From assembly GCA_003164305.1 (NCBI GenBank), contig PLSZ01000102.1, positions 1 to 5,386 of the forward strand: a DNA stretch of 5,386 nt. The letters are read 5' to 3'. Position 1 is the first letter of the stretch; every line of letters begins with the position of its first letter. Under the pieces are notes generated by a model. That model was not told the DNA's origin and did no database searches. It worked only from the letters and a program-made list of their open reading frames with translations. Shown piece by piece: positions 1-5,386 of this stretch. The translations under genes were made by a program, and so were the position numbers. Source of the DNA: Acetobacteraceae bacterium. Lineage in GTDB: Bacteria; Pseudomonadota; Alphaproteobacteria; Acetobacterales; Acetobacteraceae.

Positions 1-83
1 GTTGGAGGCGGGCAGCGGCGCAGCAAATGCAGCGCGAGCAGCGTCCCGCTGAAACCCGCCCCCACGATCGCGATCGTTGTCAT
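1..83 (-). CDS. FAD/NAD(P)-binding protein, N-terminal fragment (runs off the left edge)
   Basis: Only the first 27 codons lie in the window. They read MTTIAIVGAGFSGTLLALHL and then continue into an arginine- and proline-rich stretch. The hydrophobic strand followed by GAGFSG (residues 8-13) is a dinucleotide-binding Rossmann GxGxxG motif, placed right at the N-terminus as in FAD-dependent oxidoreductases and the FAD/NAD(P)-binding (NAD_binding_9-like) family. The reaction cannot be told from this fragment. The start at 83 is chosen because Rossmann oxidoreductases usually begin a few residues before this strand. However, its ribosome site is weak, and the frame stays open upstream to an ATG at 248 that has a strong GGGGAGG site. 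The real protein could therefore carry a 55-residue N-terminal extension. The gene is transcribed away from the sulfur-type operon and may share its intergenic control region. Confidence 0.72.
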   Translation of the reverse strand, partial: MTTIAIVGAGFSGTLLALHLLRRCPPP

Positions 84-253
84 GCTCTGGCTCGCCCTTG
101 TTGACCTGAATGCAGCAGGATCGGCGGTCAGTTCGGTGTCTCCGATCTTCCCGGACGGCGCGAATTCCTGCCCGTTTGGGCGAAAATCGCGCACCGCTCC
201 CTTTCCGAGGGAAGAATTCCACGCTGGTGCGGCGCGGGTCAATGACATTATCG

Positions 254-260
254 CCTCCCC
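254..260 (-). promoter_or_regulatory. Strong Shine-Dalgarno site for an alternative upstream start of the left-edge gene
   Basis: On the minus strand GGGGAGG is followed by five bases and an ATG (248 to 246). This ATG is in frame with the Rossmann-fold gene and no stop intervenes. By ribosome-site quality it beats the start at 83. By family length and motif position 83 is favoured. It is recorded because it decides the start. Confidence 0.4.
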
Positions 261-324
261 GCATGCTGGTTCGGAGGAGACATTCGGCGCCCACTAATTT
301 ACGCGGTTATTTCGTGTTTAATAG

Positions 325-351
325 TTGACTGACATTCCTGTGACGTATAAT
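325..351 (+). promoter_or_regulatory. Candidate sigma70 promoter for the operon
   Basis: TTGACT at 325-330 and a perfect TATAAT at 346-351 lie in an AT-rich island of an otherwise GC-rich region. The spacer is 15 bases, shorter than the preferred 17, so promoter activity may depend on an activator. An imperfect dyad, TGACATTCCTGTGA (330-343), sits in the spacer and could be an operator, but no regulator can be named. Transcription would start near 358, about 190 bases before the first operon gene. Confidence 0.5.
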
Positions 352-382
352 CGTGATGCGGTAAGGCTCGCATTCTCATCGC

Positions 383-451
383 ATGCAGGCCGGCATGTTG
401 CATTGCTACGCGTCCCTGGCTCCCGCCCTGATGGAACGCTGTTGTCGTTGA
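383..451 (+). CDS. Putative cysteine-responsive leader peptide
   Basis: This is a short open frame of 22 codons from ATG 383, or 18 codons from ATG 395. The shorter version reads MLHCYASLAPALMERCCR. It ends with two consecutive TGT cysteine codons (440-445), an arginine codon and TGA (449-451), and it has a third cysteine codon at 404. It begins about 25 bases after the predicted transcription start and stops 7 bases before the first hairpin arm. ATG 395 has a weak AGG (387-389) five bases upstream, while ATG 383 has no good ribosome site. Leader peptides with clustered cysteine codons are known upstream of sulfur-assimilation genes, where ribosome pausing at low cysteine changes downstream expression. 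The downstream genes here look sulfur-related, which fits. It is a very short frame with poor initiation signals, so chance is a real alternative. Confidence 0.42.
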   Translation: MQAGMLHCYASLAPALMERCCR

Positions 452-503
452 CCCGACGCGCGCCAACTGGCGCGACGACCTGACGCGCGCCAACCGGCGC
501 GAC
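450..503 (+). repeat. Two tandem 27-base units, each an inverted-repeat hairpin
   Basis: Units 450-476 and 477-503 are adjacent and differ at two bases (454/481 and 468/495). Unit 1 contains CGCGCCA (459-465), AC, TGGCGCG (468-474), a 7-bp stem. Unit 2 contains CGCGCC (486-491), AACC, GGCGCG (496-501), a 6-bp stem with a four-base loop. Because the arms are identical, the right arm of unit 1 can also pair with the left arm of unit 2, giving mutually exclusive folds. In addition 441-448, overlapping the leader Cys codons, can pair with 472-479 (eight pairs, two of them G-U). No T-run follows, so neither hairpin is an intrinsic terminator. They could instead be a double DNA operator or an attenuator. 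Confidence 0.7.
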
Positions 504-536
504 CCGCCCGCATCGACACCTCAGCCCCCACGCACC
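502..536 (+). promoter_or_regulatory. C-rich, G-poor tract (possible Rho-loading site)
   Basis: In these 35 bases I count 21 C and 5 G, directly downstream of the leader frame and hairpins and upstream of the first operon gene. Untranslated C-rich, G-poor RNA is the usual character of a Rho utilisation site. If the leader is an attenuator lacking an intrinsic terminator, Rho would be the natural partner. Composition is the only evidence. Confidence 0.25.
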
Positions 537-549
537 GGAAAATTCGACC

Positions 550-834
550 ATGAGCTTTTGGCGCAAGCACCAGCATGTCGTGCCCCTCACGGGCCACAAT
601 ATCTCCCAATCTTCGACTGAGCCGGAGAAGCGCGTGCCCATGCGGCACTCCAAACCGGTGGAAGTCGATGGCGTGTTCCTCGGCGCCGCGGTCGAGCATG
701 AACTGGGGGTGCGCTTTATTTCGGTCGACGGTCGGGTCAGCGATATGAACGAAAGCATCTGGCCGAACTTCGACTACGCGAAAAGCTCGGCCAGGCAGAT
801 GTTTCGAGCCAACCGTTCATTTACGTCGCCCTGA
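550..834 (+). CDS. Small protein of unknown function, first gene of the operon
   Basis: I do not recognise this 94-residue protein. It has no membrane segment, signal peptide or cysteine. The core, about residues 36-88, predicts as beta strands (GVFLGAAVE, GVRFISVD), a linker with an SIWPNFD motif (residues 73-79) and a basic helix (AKSSARQMFRANR), which suggests a small folded domain. Codon third positions are about 75-80% G or C throughout, like the neighbouring genes, supporting real coding. Two starts are possible. ATG 550 has GGAAAA seven bases upstream. ATG 640, giving 65 residues, has a better GGAGAA (624-629) with ten bases of spacing and would remove a low-complexity N-terminus. The gene ends 17 bases before the monooxygenase gene and is surely cotranscribed with it, so an accessory role in uptake or oxidation of the same substrate is plausible. 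Its function is unknown. Confidence 0.65.
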   Translation: MSFWRKHQHVVPLTGHNISQSSTEPEKRVPMRHSKPVEVDGVFLGAAVEHELGVRFISVDGRVSDMNESIWPNFDYAKSSARQMFRANRSFTSP

Positions 835-851
835 AAGCGGGGACGATCGGC

Positions 852-2240
852 ATGAACAAGGAAATCCGGCTGAACGCGTTCGACATGAACTGCGTCGGGC
901 ATATTCAACACGGGATGTGGACCCATCCGCGCGATCGCTCCGCCGACTATAATACGCTGGAATATTGGCAGCATCTCGCGCGTACCGCGGAACGCGGTTT
1001 GTTCGATGGGATTTTCCTGGCGGATATCGTTGGTGTCTACGACGTCTATAAAGACGGTCCGGCGCCTTCGATCCTCAACACGGTGCAAATCCCCGTTAAT
1101 GACCCCATGCTGGTCGTGCCGGCGATGGCGGCGGTCACCCGCCACATCGGCTTCGGCGTCACCAGTAATCTGACCTACGAACCGCCATACTTGTTCGCAC
1201 GGCGCGCTTCGACGCTGGATCACCTGACCCGCGGCCGTTTCGGTTGGAACATTGTCACCGGCTACCTCGACAGCGCCGCGCGCGGCATGGGTCTGCCGGC
1301 GCAGCACGACCACGACACACGCTATGATGTCGCCGATGAGTACATGGAAGTCGTCTACAAATTATGGGAAGGCAGTTGGGAAGACGACGCGGTGTTACGC
1401 GACCGCGACAACCGGATTTTCGCCGACCCGGACAAGATCCACCGTGTGCGGCATTTCGGCCGCCACTATCAGGTCGATGCCATCCACCTGGCGGAGCCGT
1501 CGCCACAACGAACACCGGTGTTGTACCAGGCTGGGTCCTCCGCACGTGGACGCGAATTCGCCGCGACGCATGCCGAATGCGTGTTCGTCAACGGCCCGGA
1601 CAAGACGATCACCCGATCGCTGGTTGGCGATATCCGTCGACGCGCGGTGGCGCATGGACGCACGCCCGATGACATCCTGGTCTTTCTCGGCCGCACCGTG
1701 GTGGTCGGTGAGACGCACAAGCAGGCAATCGAAAAGTACCAGGAATATCATCGACACGCGAGCATTGAAGGGGCGCTCGCGCATTTCTCGAGTTCAATCG
1801 GGGTCGATCTCTCGCGTTACGAACTCGACGAGCCGATCCGTCACGAGAGGAACAACGCTAATAATTCCGCGATCGAAGCGATCACTTCACTCAGCACCGA
1901 ACCCTGGACGCTCCGCCGTCTCATTGGCCAGATGGGACTTGGTTCGCGCAACGCGCCGATCGTCGGGTCAGCCTATGAGGTCGCCGATGAGCTGATCGCG
2001 TGGGTCGAGGAAACCGGCATTGACGGTTTCAATCTCAGCCGCATCGTGACACCGGAAAGCCTGGAGGATTTCGTCGACCTGGTCGTGCCGCTGCTGCAAG
2101 ACCGCGGCGTCTACAAGCGGGATTACGCGCAGGGAACGTTGCGCGAGAAACTATTCGGCGATGCGAGGTTGCCGGAGACGCATCCCGCTGCCTCCCATCG
2201 ATGGCGGACCGAACACTTGCGTCAGACCGCGGCGGAATAG
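852..2240 (+). CDS. LLM-class FMN-dependent monooxygenase, NtaA/SnaA/DszA (DmoA) family
   Basis: This is a 462-residue cytosolic flavin monooxygenase, close to the usual length of about 450 for the family. Such enzymes use FMNH2 supplied by a separate reductase, plus O2, to oxidise small sulfur or nitrogen compounds (nitrilotriacetate, dimethyl sulfide, dibenzothiophene sulfone, succinylated cysteine). Seen in order: N-terminal strand LNAFDMNCVGHIQHGMW, FDGIFLADIVGVYDVY (51-66), TSNLTYEPPYLFARR (104-118), the family hallmark GRFGWNIVT (128-136) with SAARGMG (141-147), RYDVADEYMEVVYKLWEGSW (157-176), DPDKIH (192-197), VLYQAGSSARGREFAA (223-238, the phosphate-binding region) and the C-terminal GIDGFNLS (389-396). 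ATG 852 has GGGGA (839-843) eight bases upstream. It lies 17 bases after the small unknown gene and 8 bases before a MetN-type ATPase gene, which suggests an imported, probably sulfur-containing substrate. The exact substrate cannot be read from sequence, and no flavin reductase is in the window. Confidence 0.95.
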   Translation: MNKEIRLNAFDMNCVGHIQHGMWTHPRDRSADYNTLEYWQHLARTAERGLFDGIFLADIVGVYDVYKDGPAPSILNTVQIPVNDPMLVVPAMAAVTRHIGFGVTSNLTYEPPYLFARRASTLDHLTRGRFGWNIVTGYLDSAARGMGLPAQHDHDTRYDVADEYMEVVYKLWEGSWEDDAVLRDRDNRIFADPDKIHRVRHFGRHYQVDAIHLAEPSPQRTPVLYQAGSSARGREFAATHAECVFVNGPDKTITRSLVGDIRRRAVAHGRTPDDILVFLGRTVVVGETHKQAIEKYQEYHRHASIEGALAHFSSSIGVDLSRYELDEPIRHERNNANNSAIEAITSLSTEPWTLRRLIGQMGLGSRNAPIVGSAYEVADELIAWVEETGIDGFNLSRIVTPESLEDFVDLVVPLLQDRGVYKRDYAQGTLREKLFGDARLPETHPAASHRWRTEHLRQTAAE

Positions 2241-2244
2241 GAGG
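2239..2244 (+). promoter_or_regulatory. Ribosome-binding site that fixes the MetN-like start
   Basis: A perfect AGGAGG overlaps the last two bases of the monooxygenase stop codon and is followed four bases later by ATG 2249. It rules in favour of 2249 over the in-frame ATG at 2201, which lies inside the upstream gene and has no comparable site. Translational coupling with the monooxygenase is likely. Confidence 0.85.
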
Positions 2245-2248
2245 CATC

Positions 2249-3391
2249 ATGAACTCGTATTCCGATTGGTTTCATCCCGAGGTGGCCCTGCTATCAGAGG
2301 AATTACTCTGGCCGTACAAACACATCGACGACGAACGCCACGAGGAGCCGCTGGACCATTACGATGGGCCGGTGGTTCGTCTCGGTAGCGTCAGCAAATC
2401 GTTCGGCCGTGTCCAGGCGTTGAACGACGTCACCTTCGAGGTTCAACGCGGCGAAATCCTCGGCATCATCGGCCGGAGCGGCGCTGGGAAATCGACATTG
2501 ATCCGTTGCCTCAACGGCCTGGAGAAGCCGGATCGCGGGCGTGTCGAAATCCTTGGCCGGGATATCGCGCCATTGAGCGAACACGCGTTACGCGGCGTGC
2601 GGCGGCAAATCGGCATGATTTTCCAGCACTTCAATCTGTTGTCCGCCAAAACGGTGGCGCAGAACGTGACGCTGCCCTTGAAGATCGCGGGCGCCGATAA
2701 ACCGGAACGCACGGAGCGAGTGCGGGAGCTGCTGGACCTGGTCGGCCTCACGGACAAAGCCAGATCGTTCCCGGCGCAACTGTCCGGCGGCCAAAAGCAG
2801 CGGGTTGGCATCGCCCGGGCCTTAGCCGCGCGACCCGCTTTGCTGCTGTCGGACGAGGCGACCTCAGCGCTCGACCCGGAAACGACATTGTCGATCCTGA
2901 ACCTGCTGCGTGACATCAACCGGCGCCTCGGCCTGACGATCGTTCTCATCACGCATGAAATGAGCGTGGTGCGCGCGGTCGCCGATCGCGTGATCGTGCT
3001 CGACGAAGGGCGTGTTCTGGAAGAGGGCGACGCTCTGAGTGTGTTCACAGCACCTCAGGCCGCTTTGACGGAGCGGTTACTCGGCATCGACCCGGCAGAC
3101 CTCCCGAGGGGATTGCGCGATGTGTGGACCGAGGGCGGGTATCTCGTTCTGCGCGTGCAACTGACGGGAACAGCCGCGCAACGCCCGGTGCTGGCGGAGC
3201 TGACGCGCGACCTGGCCGTGTTGCCGATCGTGCTGCGCGCGTCGGTCCAGCAGGTGCGAGAGCAGGCGGTAGTCACGTTCGTTGTCGCCATCGGCGATCT
3301 CAGCGAGTCGCTCGGCCGGCGCATCGGCGAATATCTCACGACGCGCGTCTCGCGTCTGGAAGTGTTGGGTTATGCTCAACACCTGGCCTGA
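2249..3391 (+). CDS. metN: MetN-family ABC importer ATPase with NIL domain
   Basis: This 380-residue ATPase energises a methionine-type importer at the inner membrane's cytoplasmic face, working as a dimer with the permease. Visible motifs: Walker A GRSGAGKS (75-82), Q-loop IFQHFNLL (Q126), signature LSGGQ (178-182), Walker B LLLSDEAT (198-205, D202 and catalytic E203), D-loop SALD (206-209) and H-switch ITH (H236). Residues from about 295 form the C-terminal NIL (ACT-like) domain that in MetN binds methionine and shuts transport off (trans-inhibition). A hydrophilic segment of about 40 residues precedes the usual start of the domain at VVRLGSVSKSF. It is rich in acidic and aromatic residues and is not typical of MetN (E. 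coli MetN is 343 residues). The start is set by AGGAGG at 2239-2244. The gene overlaps the permease gene by 20 bases. The family is certain. The substrate may be another sulfur compound, so metN is a family name here. Confidence 0.93.
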   Translation: MNSYSDWFHPEVALLSEELLWPYKHIDDERHEEPLDHYDGPVVRLGSVSKSFGRVQALNDVTFEVQRGEILGIIGRSGAGKSTLIRCLNGLEKPDRGRVEILGRDIAPLSEHALRGVRRQIGMIFQHFNLLSAKTVAQNVTLPLKIAGADKPERTERVRELLDLVGLTDKARSFPAQLSGGQKQRVGIARALAARPALLLSDEATSALDPETTLSILNLLRDINRRLGLTIVLITHEMSVVRAVADRVIVLDEGRVLEEGDALSVFTAPQAALTERLLGIDPADLPRGLRDVWTEGGYLVLRVQLTGTAAQRPVLAELTRDLAVLPIVLRASVQQVREQAVVTFVVAIGDLSESLGRRIGEYLTTRVSRLEVLGYAQHLA

Positions 3392-4025
3392 CATGTTTCT
3401 TCAGGCGCTGTGGGAAACGCTGGAGATGACCAGCGCCGCCGGCGCGATCGCGTTCGTCGCGGGCTTGCCTCTGGGCTTGTTATTGGTCGGCGCCGCCCCC
3501 GGCGGTATCTGGGAGAACCGCTTCATCGATCGCACGTTCGGCACCGTGGTCAACGCGTTCCGGGCGGTGCCATTCATCATTCTGATGGTAGCCCTGATCC
3601 CGGTGACCCGGTTAATCGCCGGCACCTCCATCGGCACCGAAGCCGCGATCGTGCCTCTGGCGATTGGGGCTACGCCGTACTACGCGCGCATTGCGGAAGT
3701 TTCATTGCGGGACGTGGACCGCGGCCTGATCGAGGCGGTGAAGTCAATGGGTGGCGGCCGTTGGACCATCGTTCGCGAAGTCCTGGTGCCCGAGGCACTG
3801 CCCGGACTGTTGGCCGGCTTCACGGTCACACTGGTGACGATGATCGGTGCCTCGGCGATGGCGGGTGCGATCGGTGCCGGCGGACTAGGAGATCTGGCGA
3901 TCCGTTACGGCTATCAACGTTTCAATACCGGGATCATGTTCGGCGTCATCGTGGTGTTGATCGTTCTGGTGTCCCTGGTGCAAACAGGCGGCGACCGGCT
4001 GGCCCGACTTTTCGATCATCGCTGA
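3372..4025 (+). CDS. metI: MetI-family ABC importer permease
   Basis: This 217-residue inner-membrane permease is the same length as E. coli MetI and aligns with it almost throughout. Hydrophobic membrane segments lie near residues 15-42, 57-80, 88-103, 144-172 and 186-204. The cytoplasmic coupling (EAA) loop reads EAVKSMGGGRWTIVREVLVP (121-140) and contacts the ATPase. Other conserved blocks are NAFRAVPFIILMVALIP (61-77), GTSIGTEAAIVPLAIGATP (84-102) and GAIGAGGLGDL (165-175). ATG 3372 is chosen because GGAAG (3358-3362) lies nine bases upstream and the length then matches the family. The next ATG, 3393, has no ribosome site. The gene starts inside the last codons of the ATPase gene, a 20-base overlap implying translational coupling, and ends 17 bases before the binding-protein gene. 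Confidence 0.95.
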   Translation: MLNTWPDMFLQALWETLEMTSAAGAIAFVAGLPLGLLLVGAAPGGIWENRFIDRTFGTVVNAFRAVPFIILMVALIPVTRLIAGTSIGTEAAIVPLAIGATPYYARIAEVSLRDVDRGLIEAVKSMGGGRWTIVREVLVPEALPGLLAGFTVTLVTMIGASAMAGAIGAGGLGDLAIRYGYQRFNTGIMFGVIVVLIVLVSLVQTGGDRLARLFDHR

Positions 4026-4042
4026 ACGAGGTTTTCGCTGTC

Positions 4043-4837
4043 ATGACCCTGCTCAATCGACGTACGTTCGTCGCGGCGACACTCTTGTTGTCCTCGGTAC
4101 GCAAATCCTGGGCTGAAGAGCCGCCATTGAAAATTGGCTCCCCGAGCGGACCGTTTGGGGACATCCTGGGGTTCGCCATCCAGGAAGCTGAAAAGCAAGG
4201 GCTCAAGGTGAAGAAGATCGAGTTCACCGATTGGATCACGCCGAATGAGGCGCTGGCCGCGGGTGAGATCGATGCCAATCTGTTTCAGCACATTCCATTT
4301 CTGAACGCGGCCATCAAGGCGCGTGGATACAAACTCGTGCCCATCGCGCCCACGACCGTTATGGGGATGGCGCTTTTCTCCCACAAGGTGACATCGTTCG
4401 ACCAGGTCAAGGACGGCGCGACGGTGGCGATCGCGAACGATCCGGTCAACGGCGCGCGCGGCCTGCAATTGTTTCAGAAGGCGGGGCTGATCACCTTGAA
4501 GCCCGAAGTTGGCGACGATGCGACCGTCGAGGACATCGTCGCCAATCCGCGGCATCTGCGGTTTCTGCAACTGGAGGCGGCGCAGTTGCCGCGCGCGCTG
4601 GATGACGTCGCGCTGGCGCAGGTCAGCATCAGCTACCTGATGATATCGGGTGGCGACCCGGGTTCGGCTTTGCTGACCGATGGCGAAGGCGATCCGCACT
4701 ACGCGCTGAACTTTGTCGTGCGGGCGGACCACGAACATGATCCTCGGACCTTGCGGTTCGTGGATATCTATCGGTCACCAGCGGTGAAAGCATTTATTGT
4801 CGACCTTTATGGAAAGTACATCCGGCCCGTCTGGTAG
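4043..4837 (+). CDS. metQ: MetQ/NlpA-family periplasmic substrate-binding protein
   Basis: This 264-residue periplasmic receptor delivers substrate to the MetNI-type transporter. Family blocks seen: FTDWITPNEALAAGEIDANL (61-80), FQHIPFL (81-87), GATVAIANDPVNGARG (125-140), LEAAQLPRALDD (177-188) and the C-terminal YGKYIRPVW. The signal sequence NRRTFVAATLLLSS ends in SWA (22-24) before EE. It has a twin-arginine start (RR at 6-7) and no lipobox cysteine, so it is probably a soluble periplasmic protein, perhaps Tat-exported, unlike the lipoprotein MetQ of E. coli. By my alignment two asparagines of E. coli MetQ, N202 and the methionine-contacting N229, are replaced by S195 and L222, while F81, H83 and R139 are kept. 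The ligand may therefore not be methionine. ATG 4043 has GAGG 11 bases upstream. It is the last gene of the operon. Confidence 0.94.
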   Translation: MTLLNRRTFVAATLLLSSVRKSWAEEPPLKIGSPSGPFGDILGFAIQEAEKQGLKVKKIEFTDWITPNEALAAGEIDANLFQHIPFLNAAIKARGYKLVPIAPTTVMGMALFSHKVTSFDQVKDGATVAIANDPVNGARGLQLFQKAGLITLKPEVGDDATVEDIVANPRHLRFLQLEAAQLPRALDDVALAQVSISYLMISGGDPGSALLTDGEGDPHYALNFVVRADHEHDPRTLRFVDIYRSPAVKAFIVDLYGKYIRPVW

Positions 4838-4873
4838 CCTGTTTCTCCCGACCTCAATCGGTGGAGCGAACCC

Positions 4874-5386
4874 TCATCCATCTTGCCCCAAGGGAAAATG
4901 GCAGGCGACAAATCGTCCGCTCCCGCGCTCCGCCAGCACCGGTTCAACGGTCCGGCACAACGCGGTGGCGAAGTCGCAGCGTGTGTGAAACCGGCACCCA
5001 CTCGGCGGGTTCGCTGGCGACGGCAACTCTCCCCTGGGCGGCACCAGGCGCCCCCGCAGCGTTGGATCCGGCACTGGAATCGCTGCCAACAGAGCGCGCG
5101 TATACGGATGTGCGGGATCGCGGAACAGGTCTCCGGCCGGCCCGACTTCCACCAGCTTGCCGAGATACATCACACCGATCCGGTCGGAAATATGCCGCAC
5201 CAGATGCAGCCCATGGCCAATGAACAAATACGTCAGGCCGAGACGCTGCTTCAGGTCGATCAGCAGATTGATGATCTGTGCCTGCACCGAAACGTCCAGC
5301 GCCGAGACCGCCTCATCGGCCACGACGAACCGCGGGTTCAAAGCAATGGCCCGGGCGATCGCCACGCGTTGCCGTTGACCGCCGGA
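4874..5386 (-). CDS. DppF/OppF-type peptide ABC transporter ATPase, C-terminal part (runs off the right edge)
   Basis: The last 170 residues of a cytoplasmic ATPase of a dipeptide/oligopeptide/nickel-type importer are present. The fragment opens inside the signature motif with [13 protein letters not shown], followed by Walker [19 protein letters not shown] (D24, E25), [13 protein letters not shown] with the H-switch His at 58, [16 protein letters not shown], and the family tail [16 protein letters not shown] (oligo_HPY region). Four cysteines near the end are spaced C-x5-C-x6-C-x17-C, as in many Dpp/Opp ATPases where an iron-sulfur cluster has been described. HGL replaces the usual HDL after the H-switch His. 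The PVPDP tail and SVQAQ are more like DppF/OppF than DppD/OppD. The Walker A half lies outside. The gene converges on the sulfur-type operon with 36 bases between stops and belongs to a separate transcription unit. The peptide substrate is not predictable. Confidence 0.93.

Follow-up and report, generated by a model that had tools for sequence, protein, structure and literature searches.

A conserved short reading frame with adjacent cysteine codons ahead of a sulfur-type operon in an Acetobacteraceae genome: a candidate cysteine-sensing leader

A stretch of Acetobacteraceae DNA of 5,386 nucleotides (contig PLSZ01000102.1, positions 1 to 5,386; referred to here as the window) carries a short reading frame rich in cysteine codons ahead of an operon. 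The question raised by this locus is whether the frame is a leader peptide through which the supply of cysteine governs the genes behind it, as had been suggested in an earlier note made from the sequence alone. The frame was examined in the window, in its closest relatives and upstream of the wider family of the operon's first gene. Sensing of cysteine is the best-supported reading, and we consider it likely.

Leader frame, operon and the Rhodopila-like clade

The operon comprises five genes.

550..834, + strand: ORF94, a small protein and the operon's first gene, without a Pfam or NCBIfam family
852..2240, + strand: NtaA/DmoA-family FMN-dependent monooxygenase (TIGR03860, 555.9 bits; cut-off 279.7)
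2249..3391, + strand: MetN-like ABC ATPase with a NIL domain (PF00005 and PF09383; best NCBIfam model TIGR02314, below its cut-off)
3372..4025, + strand: MetI-like permease (NF008049, 229.9 bits; cut-off 212)
4043..4837, + strand: MetQ/NlpA-family substrate-binding protein (PF03180, 242.8 bits; NCBIfam MetQ models below their cut-offs)

The host resembles Rhodopila (Acetobacteraceae), an alphaproteobacterium, its monooxygenase being 81-87% identical to those in four Rhodopila assemblies (L001-L004). The gene order ORF94, monooxygenase, MetN, MetI was matched in all four of these loci, and MetQ in three; in L002 an alkanesulfonate monooxygenase gene immediately precedes the leader. With that gene, the NtaA/DmoA monooxygenase and metNIQ, the operon looks sulfur-related, as the earlier note had supposed, and is probably of the sulfur-compound uptake type, a role resting on family names. 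The C-terminal part of an oligopeptide/dipeptide ABC ATPase lies at 4874-5386 on the - strand, convergent with the operon.

The region upstream of ORF94 contains the following features.

325..351, + strand: promoter-like TTGACT-N15-TATAAT (TTGAC and CGTATAAT are shared in the alignment of the window with six relatives)
387..391, + strand: weak ribosome site of the leader, AGGCC (the six relatives have GGAGGCC)
395..451, + strand: leader reading frame MLHCYASLAPALMERCCR-stop, with 18 codons here and in each of six relatives
440..451, + strand: TGT TGT CGT TGA, proposed stall site Cys-Cys-Arg-stop (Cys17, Arg18 and TGA in 7/7, Cys16 in 6/7)
459..501, + strand: two GC-rich hairpins (459-474 and 486-501), private to the window and without a T-run behind them

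Translation of 383-451 gives MQAGMLHCYASLAPALMERCCR-stop, exactly the three-cysteine frame first described, with Cys codons at 404-406, 440-442 and 443-445 (TGT TGT at 440-445), CGT at 446-448 and TGA at 449-451. Its start had been placed at 383. Judged from the relatives, by ribosome site and length, the start is ATG 395 instead, because GGAGG stands five bases ahead of this codon in the six relatives (AGG in the window). The poor ribosome site had been conceded as a weak point, and the window does have AGG only, against GGAGG in the relatives. The TATAAT reported upstream was found at 346-351, behind TTGACT (325-330) with a spacer of 15 nt, and is aligned in six relatives; a promoter scan demanding a spacer of 16-18 nt gave no site at 325-351.

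The leader peptides are MLHCYASLAPALMERCCR in the window, MIDCSALLAPAMWAGCCR in G001, MMRCPAPLLLSMQAKCCR in G002, MTYCFAPQAAFMRAGCCR in G003, MMRCPAPLLLSMQAGRCR in G004, MMRCPAPLLLSMQAHCCR in G399 and MIYCFAFPGLLKQAGCCR in G405. All seven have exactly 18 codons, and Met1, Cys4, Ala6, Cys17, Arg18 and TGA are invariant. Cys16, and hence the Cys-Cys pair, is kept in six of the seven, G004 having RCR instead of CCR. An alignment of relatives had been named as the check on the frame and its Cys-Cys-Arg-stop end; it bore out frame, length and Cys-Arg-stop in 7/7, and failed for the one Cys lost in G004. The flanking distances vary, from 43 to 52 nt between the -10 box and the ATG and from 50 to 98 nt between the leader stop and ORF94.

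The leader pattern occurs once per genome in all six relatives, and ten of 397 family genomes match the exact pattern, at least two of them (G002 and G399) at the ORF94 locus. In a genus search ORF94 was found at E 1e-12 or better in 7 of 33 genomes, with the leader present in six and absent from G315. Genome G098, which carries ORF94 on a contig that stops short of the leader, stood outside the comparison. In G399 (locus L092) the leader and small gene are kept despite a shortened monooxygenase frame downstream, which seems to be without most of its middle, its start soon meeting its end; an assembly fault is possible.

Differences among the seven leaders fell evenly on the three codon positions (111, 126 and 109), with no third-position bias, and the conserved Cys codons are invariant at the wobble base within the clade. 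Both observations suit a leader with few important codons, and would suit a nucleotide motif too.

A search of ten loci found ORF94 in L001-L004 only. A scan for a Cys-Cys frame took in 12 of the 80 monooxygenase loci: the frame stood where expected in three Rhodopila loci, with RCR in its stead in L004; L006 and L076 each had a single stray match, and none was seen in the remaining six. On this comparison the leader is associated with ORF94 and not with the monooxygenase.

Cys-Cys leaders and SAM-II-like elements in the ORF94 family

Members of the ORF94 family were detected in 118 of 397 Acetobacteraceae genomes at E 0.001 and, with the L107 member as query, in 4 of 385 genomes across the class at E 1e-5. 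Family searches found no Pfam or NCBIfam name. The predicted structure of ORF94 (model pLDDT 74) consists of strands and a C-terminal helix, and comparison of the fold with the PDB gave no match at E 0.001 or better.

For the upstream survey 115 loci were assembled. Besides the window, those with an intact frame no shorter than 60 aa were kept, giving 102 with the window included; one of these had less than 150 nt upstream, leaving 101. About 100 family matches came without a locus, and 80 were retrieved, the remainder (near contig ends or weakest) being omitted. Frames of 8-45 codons with a ribosome-site word ahead and adjacent Cys codons were accepted within 250 nt upstream. Such a frame precedes the gene at 28 of the 101 loci, all in Acetobacteraceae; in 200 dinucleotide shuffles of the same regions the count averaged 0.79 and never exceeded 4, and the antisense strand gave 1. 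A stricter earlier version found 21 of 102 loci against 0.85 expected, and a similar test of other 320-nt slices of the same loci was positive in 21 of 2366.

Six of the 28 positives are the window and its clade. Seven are doubtful: four run across a SAM-II-like aptamer (L140, L157, L169 and L183), and three lie 169-204 nt upstream (L182, L194 and L211). The remaining 15 are L093, L094, L095, L097, L098, L103, L107, L108, L118, L136, L143, L163, L165, L173 and L210; L093-L095 are close relatives, as are L163, L165 and L173, and the family counts are therefore not independent. The other 73 loci, G315 among them, are without such a frame, some having looser Cys clusters and many none.

With the window's clade and the aptamer group set aside, TGYTGY fell 24 times in the frame of the ORF and 0 and 9 times in the other frames. 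The 28 Cys-Cys pairs were written TGTTGT (14), TGTTGC (8) or TGCTGT (6), never TGC TGC. In 20 leaders TGT made up 39 of 61 Cys codons (TGC 22), against 35 of 113 (TGC 78) in neighbouring frames chosen by a crude script (Fisher p 5e-5, which ignores relatedness).

The SAM-II-like aptamer core GCTTGCRCCGCG was present in 13 of the 101 upstream regions (L140, L148, L152, L155, L157, L164, L167, L169, L177, L183, L195, L197 and L207). Matches to SAM_alpha (SAM-II, RF00521) ahead of the family gene reached 22.8 bits in L183, 21.9 in L157 and 21.7 in L169, all below the gathering score; L155 had no SAM_alpha match. In L007 (Microvirga) a match scoring 25.6 bits, against a gathering score of 36, was placed at 5059-5134, upstream of the monooxygenase. 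No SAM-II element was reported at the gathering threshold among 34 loci, and none was matched in the window with E allowed up to 5. Frames whose translation begins with MQLAPRHQ or MQLAPRYQ, considered as a conserved peptide, read through the SAM-II-like aptamer and were not counted as leader evidence. As predicted elements, the cores are a further pointer to sulfur control.

Nine proteins downstream of family genes were picked by hand for family search. They included NMT1-type binding proteins (L136, L096 and L139), an LLM monooxygenase (L159), MetN- and MetQ-like proteins (L171), a PHO4 permease (L203) and Cons_hypoth698 (L103); L154 gave no hit. Only L136 and L103 among these loci belong to the 28 Cys-Cys positives. 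Elsewhere, for example in L140, L157, L183, L093 and L107, the long frame that follows runs on the other strand, and the small gene may therefore stand alone in such loci.

Proposed cysteine sensing, RNA structure and rival readings

Comparison of the aligned loci establishes the frame itself, including start, length and Cys-Arg-stop end, as well as the recurrence of Cys-Cys leaders before the ORF94 family. On the cysteine-sensing reading, the frame at 395-451 would encode a translated leader peptide, and the Cys codons clustered close to its stop would gauge charged Cys-tRNA. Under a shortage of cysteine the ribosome would stall on TGT TGT; stalling would raise expression of ORF94, the monooxygenase and metNIQ, and organic sulfur would be taken up and oxidized. 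We infer that the frame is translated, that ribosomes stall on it and that the operon responds in this direction. The stalled ribosome might work by way of RNA folding around the ORF94 start, by way of the access of Rho, or by another route.

The GC-rich hairpins that the earlier note saw after the frame are present at 459-474 and 486-501. They are formed by a near-perfect direct repeat at 456-504 and were set aside as an attenuator because this stretch is unmatched in the six relatives. No intrinsic terminator was found in window positions 290-620, and no consistent RNA switch emerged. The consensus structure of the seven clade leaders consists of short scattered stems only; a hairpin beside the ribosome site of the gene was predicted for two aligned groups, one of seven sequences and one of five, and for the window's clade there was no such prediction. 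With a ribosome modelled at the Cys codons, openness of the gene start rose relative to free RNA in 10 of 22 loci, was equal in 2 and fell in 10; the ORF94 start of the window drops from 0.73 to 0.48. Pairing between the Cys region and the spacer exceeds the shuffle mean in six of seven leaders, 11-57% of shuffles being equal or better. The spacer is C-rich in the window (C 0.48, G 0.26), with C of only 0.26 to 0.40 in the six relatives, and no claim is made for a Rho site in it. In L163 (1977-1990) and L173 (1978-1990), loci of another clade, a weak terminator-like hairpin with a T-rich tail lies between the Cys-Cys leader and the small gene; these predicted hairpins are perhaps a transcriptional version of leader control.

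The earlier note's reading of a cysteine leader stood as regards the frame, which is kept in six relatives and echoed by similar frames before the ORF94 family elsewhere; conserved hairpins, a terminator and a consistent switch found no support. Weighing against cysteine sensing are the RCR of G004, the missing third-position bias and wobble change within the clade, the 73 of 101 loci without a frame, the modelled openness of the gene start on stalling, as often lowered as raised and lowered in the window, the pairing of the Cys region, not clearly stronger than in shuffles, and the relatedness of the loci counted.

Some of these bear on a different reading, in which the TGTTGTCGCTGATC block is conserved as a motif of the RNA or DNA (a site for a protein, a target of a small RNA or one arm of a hairpin), its Cys codons being incidental. 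Such a motif would account for TGT TGT without wobble change in the clade, for even differences over the codon positions, for GTTGTCGC retained in G004 though Cys-Cys is lost, and for the absence of TGC TGC among the 28 pairs. It fits poorly with the frame bias of 24/0/9 outside the clade, with wobble bases that differ between clades, and with conservation of leader start, ribosome site and 18-codon length alike; we hold it to be unlikely. The leader might also be translated and sense something else, its nascent Cys/Arg-rich end binding a metal or oxidant, or the frame merely coupling or tuning ORF94 translation. Arg is as constant as Cys at the clade's leader ends (Cys-Arg-stop in 7/7), as such a signal would have it; Cys-Cys nevertheless recurs amid different neighbours in other clades, and the operon is of sulfur type, which leaves this reading somewhat less probable again. 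That a short frame happens to hold three Cys codons by chance could be argued from its length, the weak ribosome site and the window-private hairpins. Against this stand the equal length and end in 7/7 leaders, the single copy per genome in 6/6 relatives and the 28 of 101 loci where 0.79 were expected, and chance is very improbable.

A broader proposal, which we would neither favor nor discount, is that a family-wide Cys-codon sensor in Acetobacteraceae controls an undescribed small sulfur-starvation protein of the ORF94 family, alone or heading organosulfur operons. A SAM-II-like riboswitch would replace this sensor in one genome group, and the whole would form a proteobacterial Cys-tRNA attenuator apart from the actinobacterial one. 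If cysteine sensing by the leader is true, alphaproteobacteria also read cysteine supply through translation, a defined set of loci is available for tests, and sulfur starvation is linked with a small-protein family that is uncharacterised.

Comparison with known leader systems

A classical transcription attenuator has an intrinsic terminator between leader and first gene; none was found in window positions 290-620. The SAM-II riboswitch (RF00521) is represented by sub-gathering matches before ORF94 relatives and the Microvirga monooxygenase, with none in the window. No proteobacterial Cys-codon leader was recognised among the open-licence papers searched, and PMC11550727 does not mention cysteine.

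Leader peptides with Cys runs precede the cys operons of Mycobacterium and Propionibacterium acnes and cbs of Bifidobacterium longum, and are without obvious terminators, according to Seliverstov et al. (2005, PMC1262725). The window frame is similar in being short, with Cys codons near its stop, ahead of sulfur genes and with no obvious terminator. It differs in belonging to an alphaproteobacterium, in having two adjacent Cys codons only, and in preceding ORF94, a monooxygenase and metNIQ and not a cys operon of the actinobacterial kind. Two marks of the actinobacterial type were found here, namely a Cys codon run near the stop of a short upstream frame (Cys-Cys in 6/7) and conservation of this frame ahead of sulfur genes (window and six relatives; role by family names).

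Mycobacterial polycysteine short ORFs are leaderless and cysteine-responsive (Canestrari et al. 2020, as cited in PMC9031893 and PMC9094748), and their contiguous Cys codons are proposed to slow ribosomes when cysteine is scarce. The window leader likewise has contiguous Cys codons, at which stalling is a proposal. Unlike the mycobacterial ORFs, the clade's frames have a ribosome site, and their ATG lies 43-52 nt behind the -10 box; judged from the predicted promoter, the window leader does not look leaderless.
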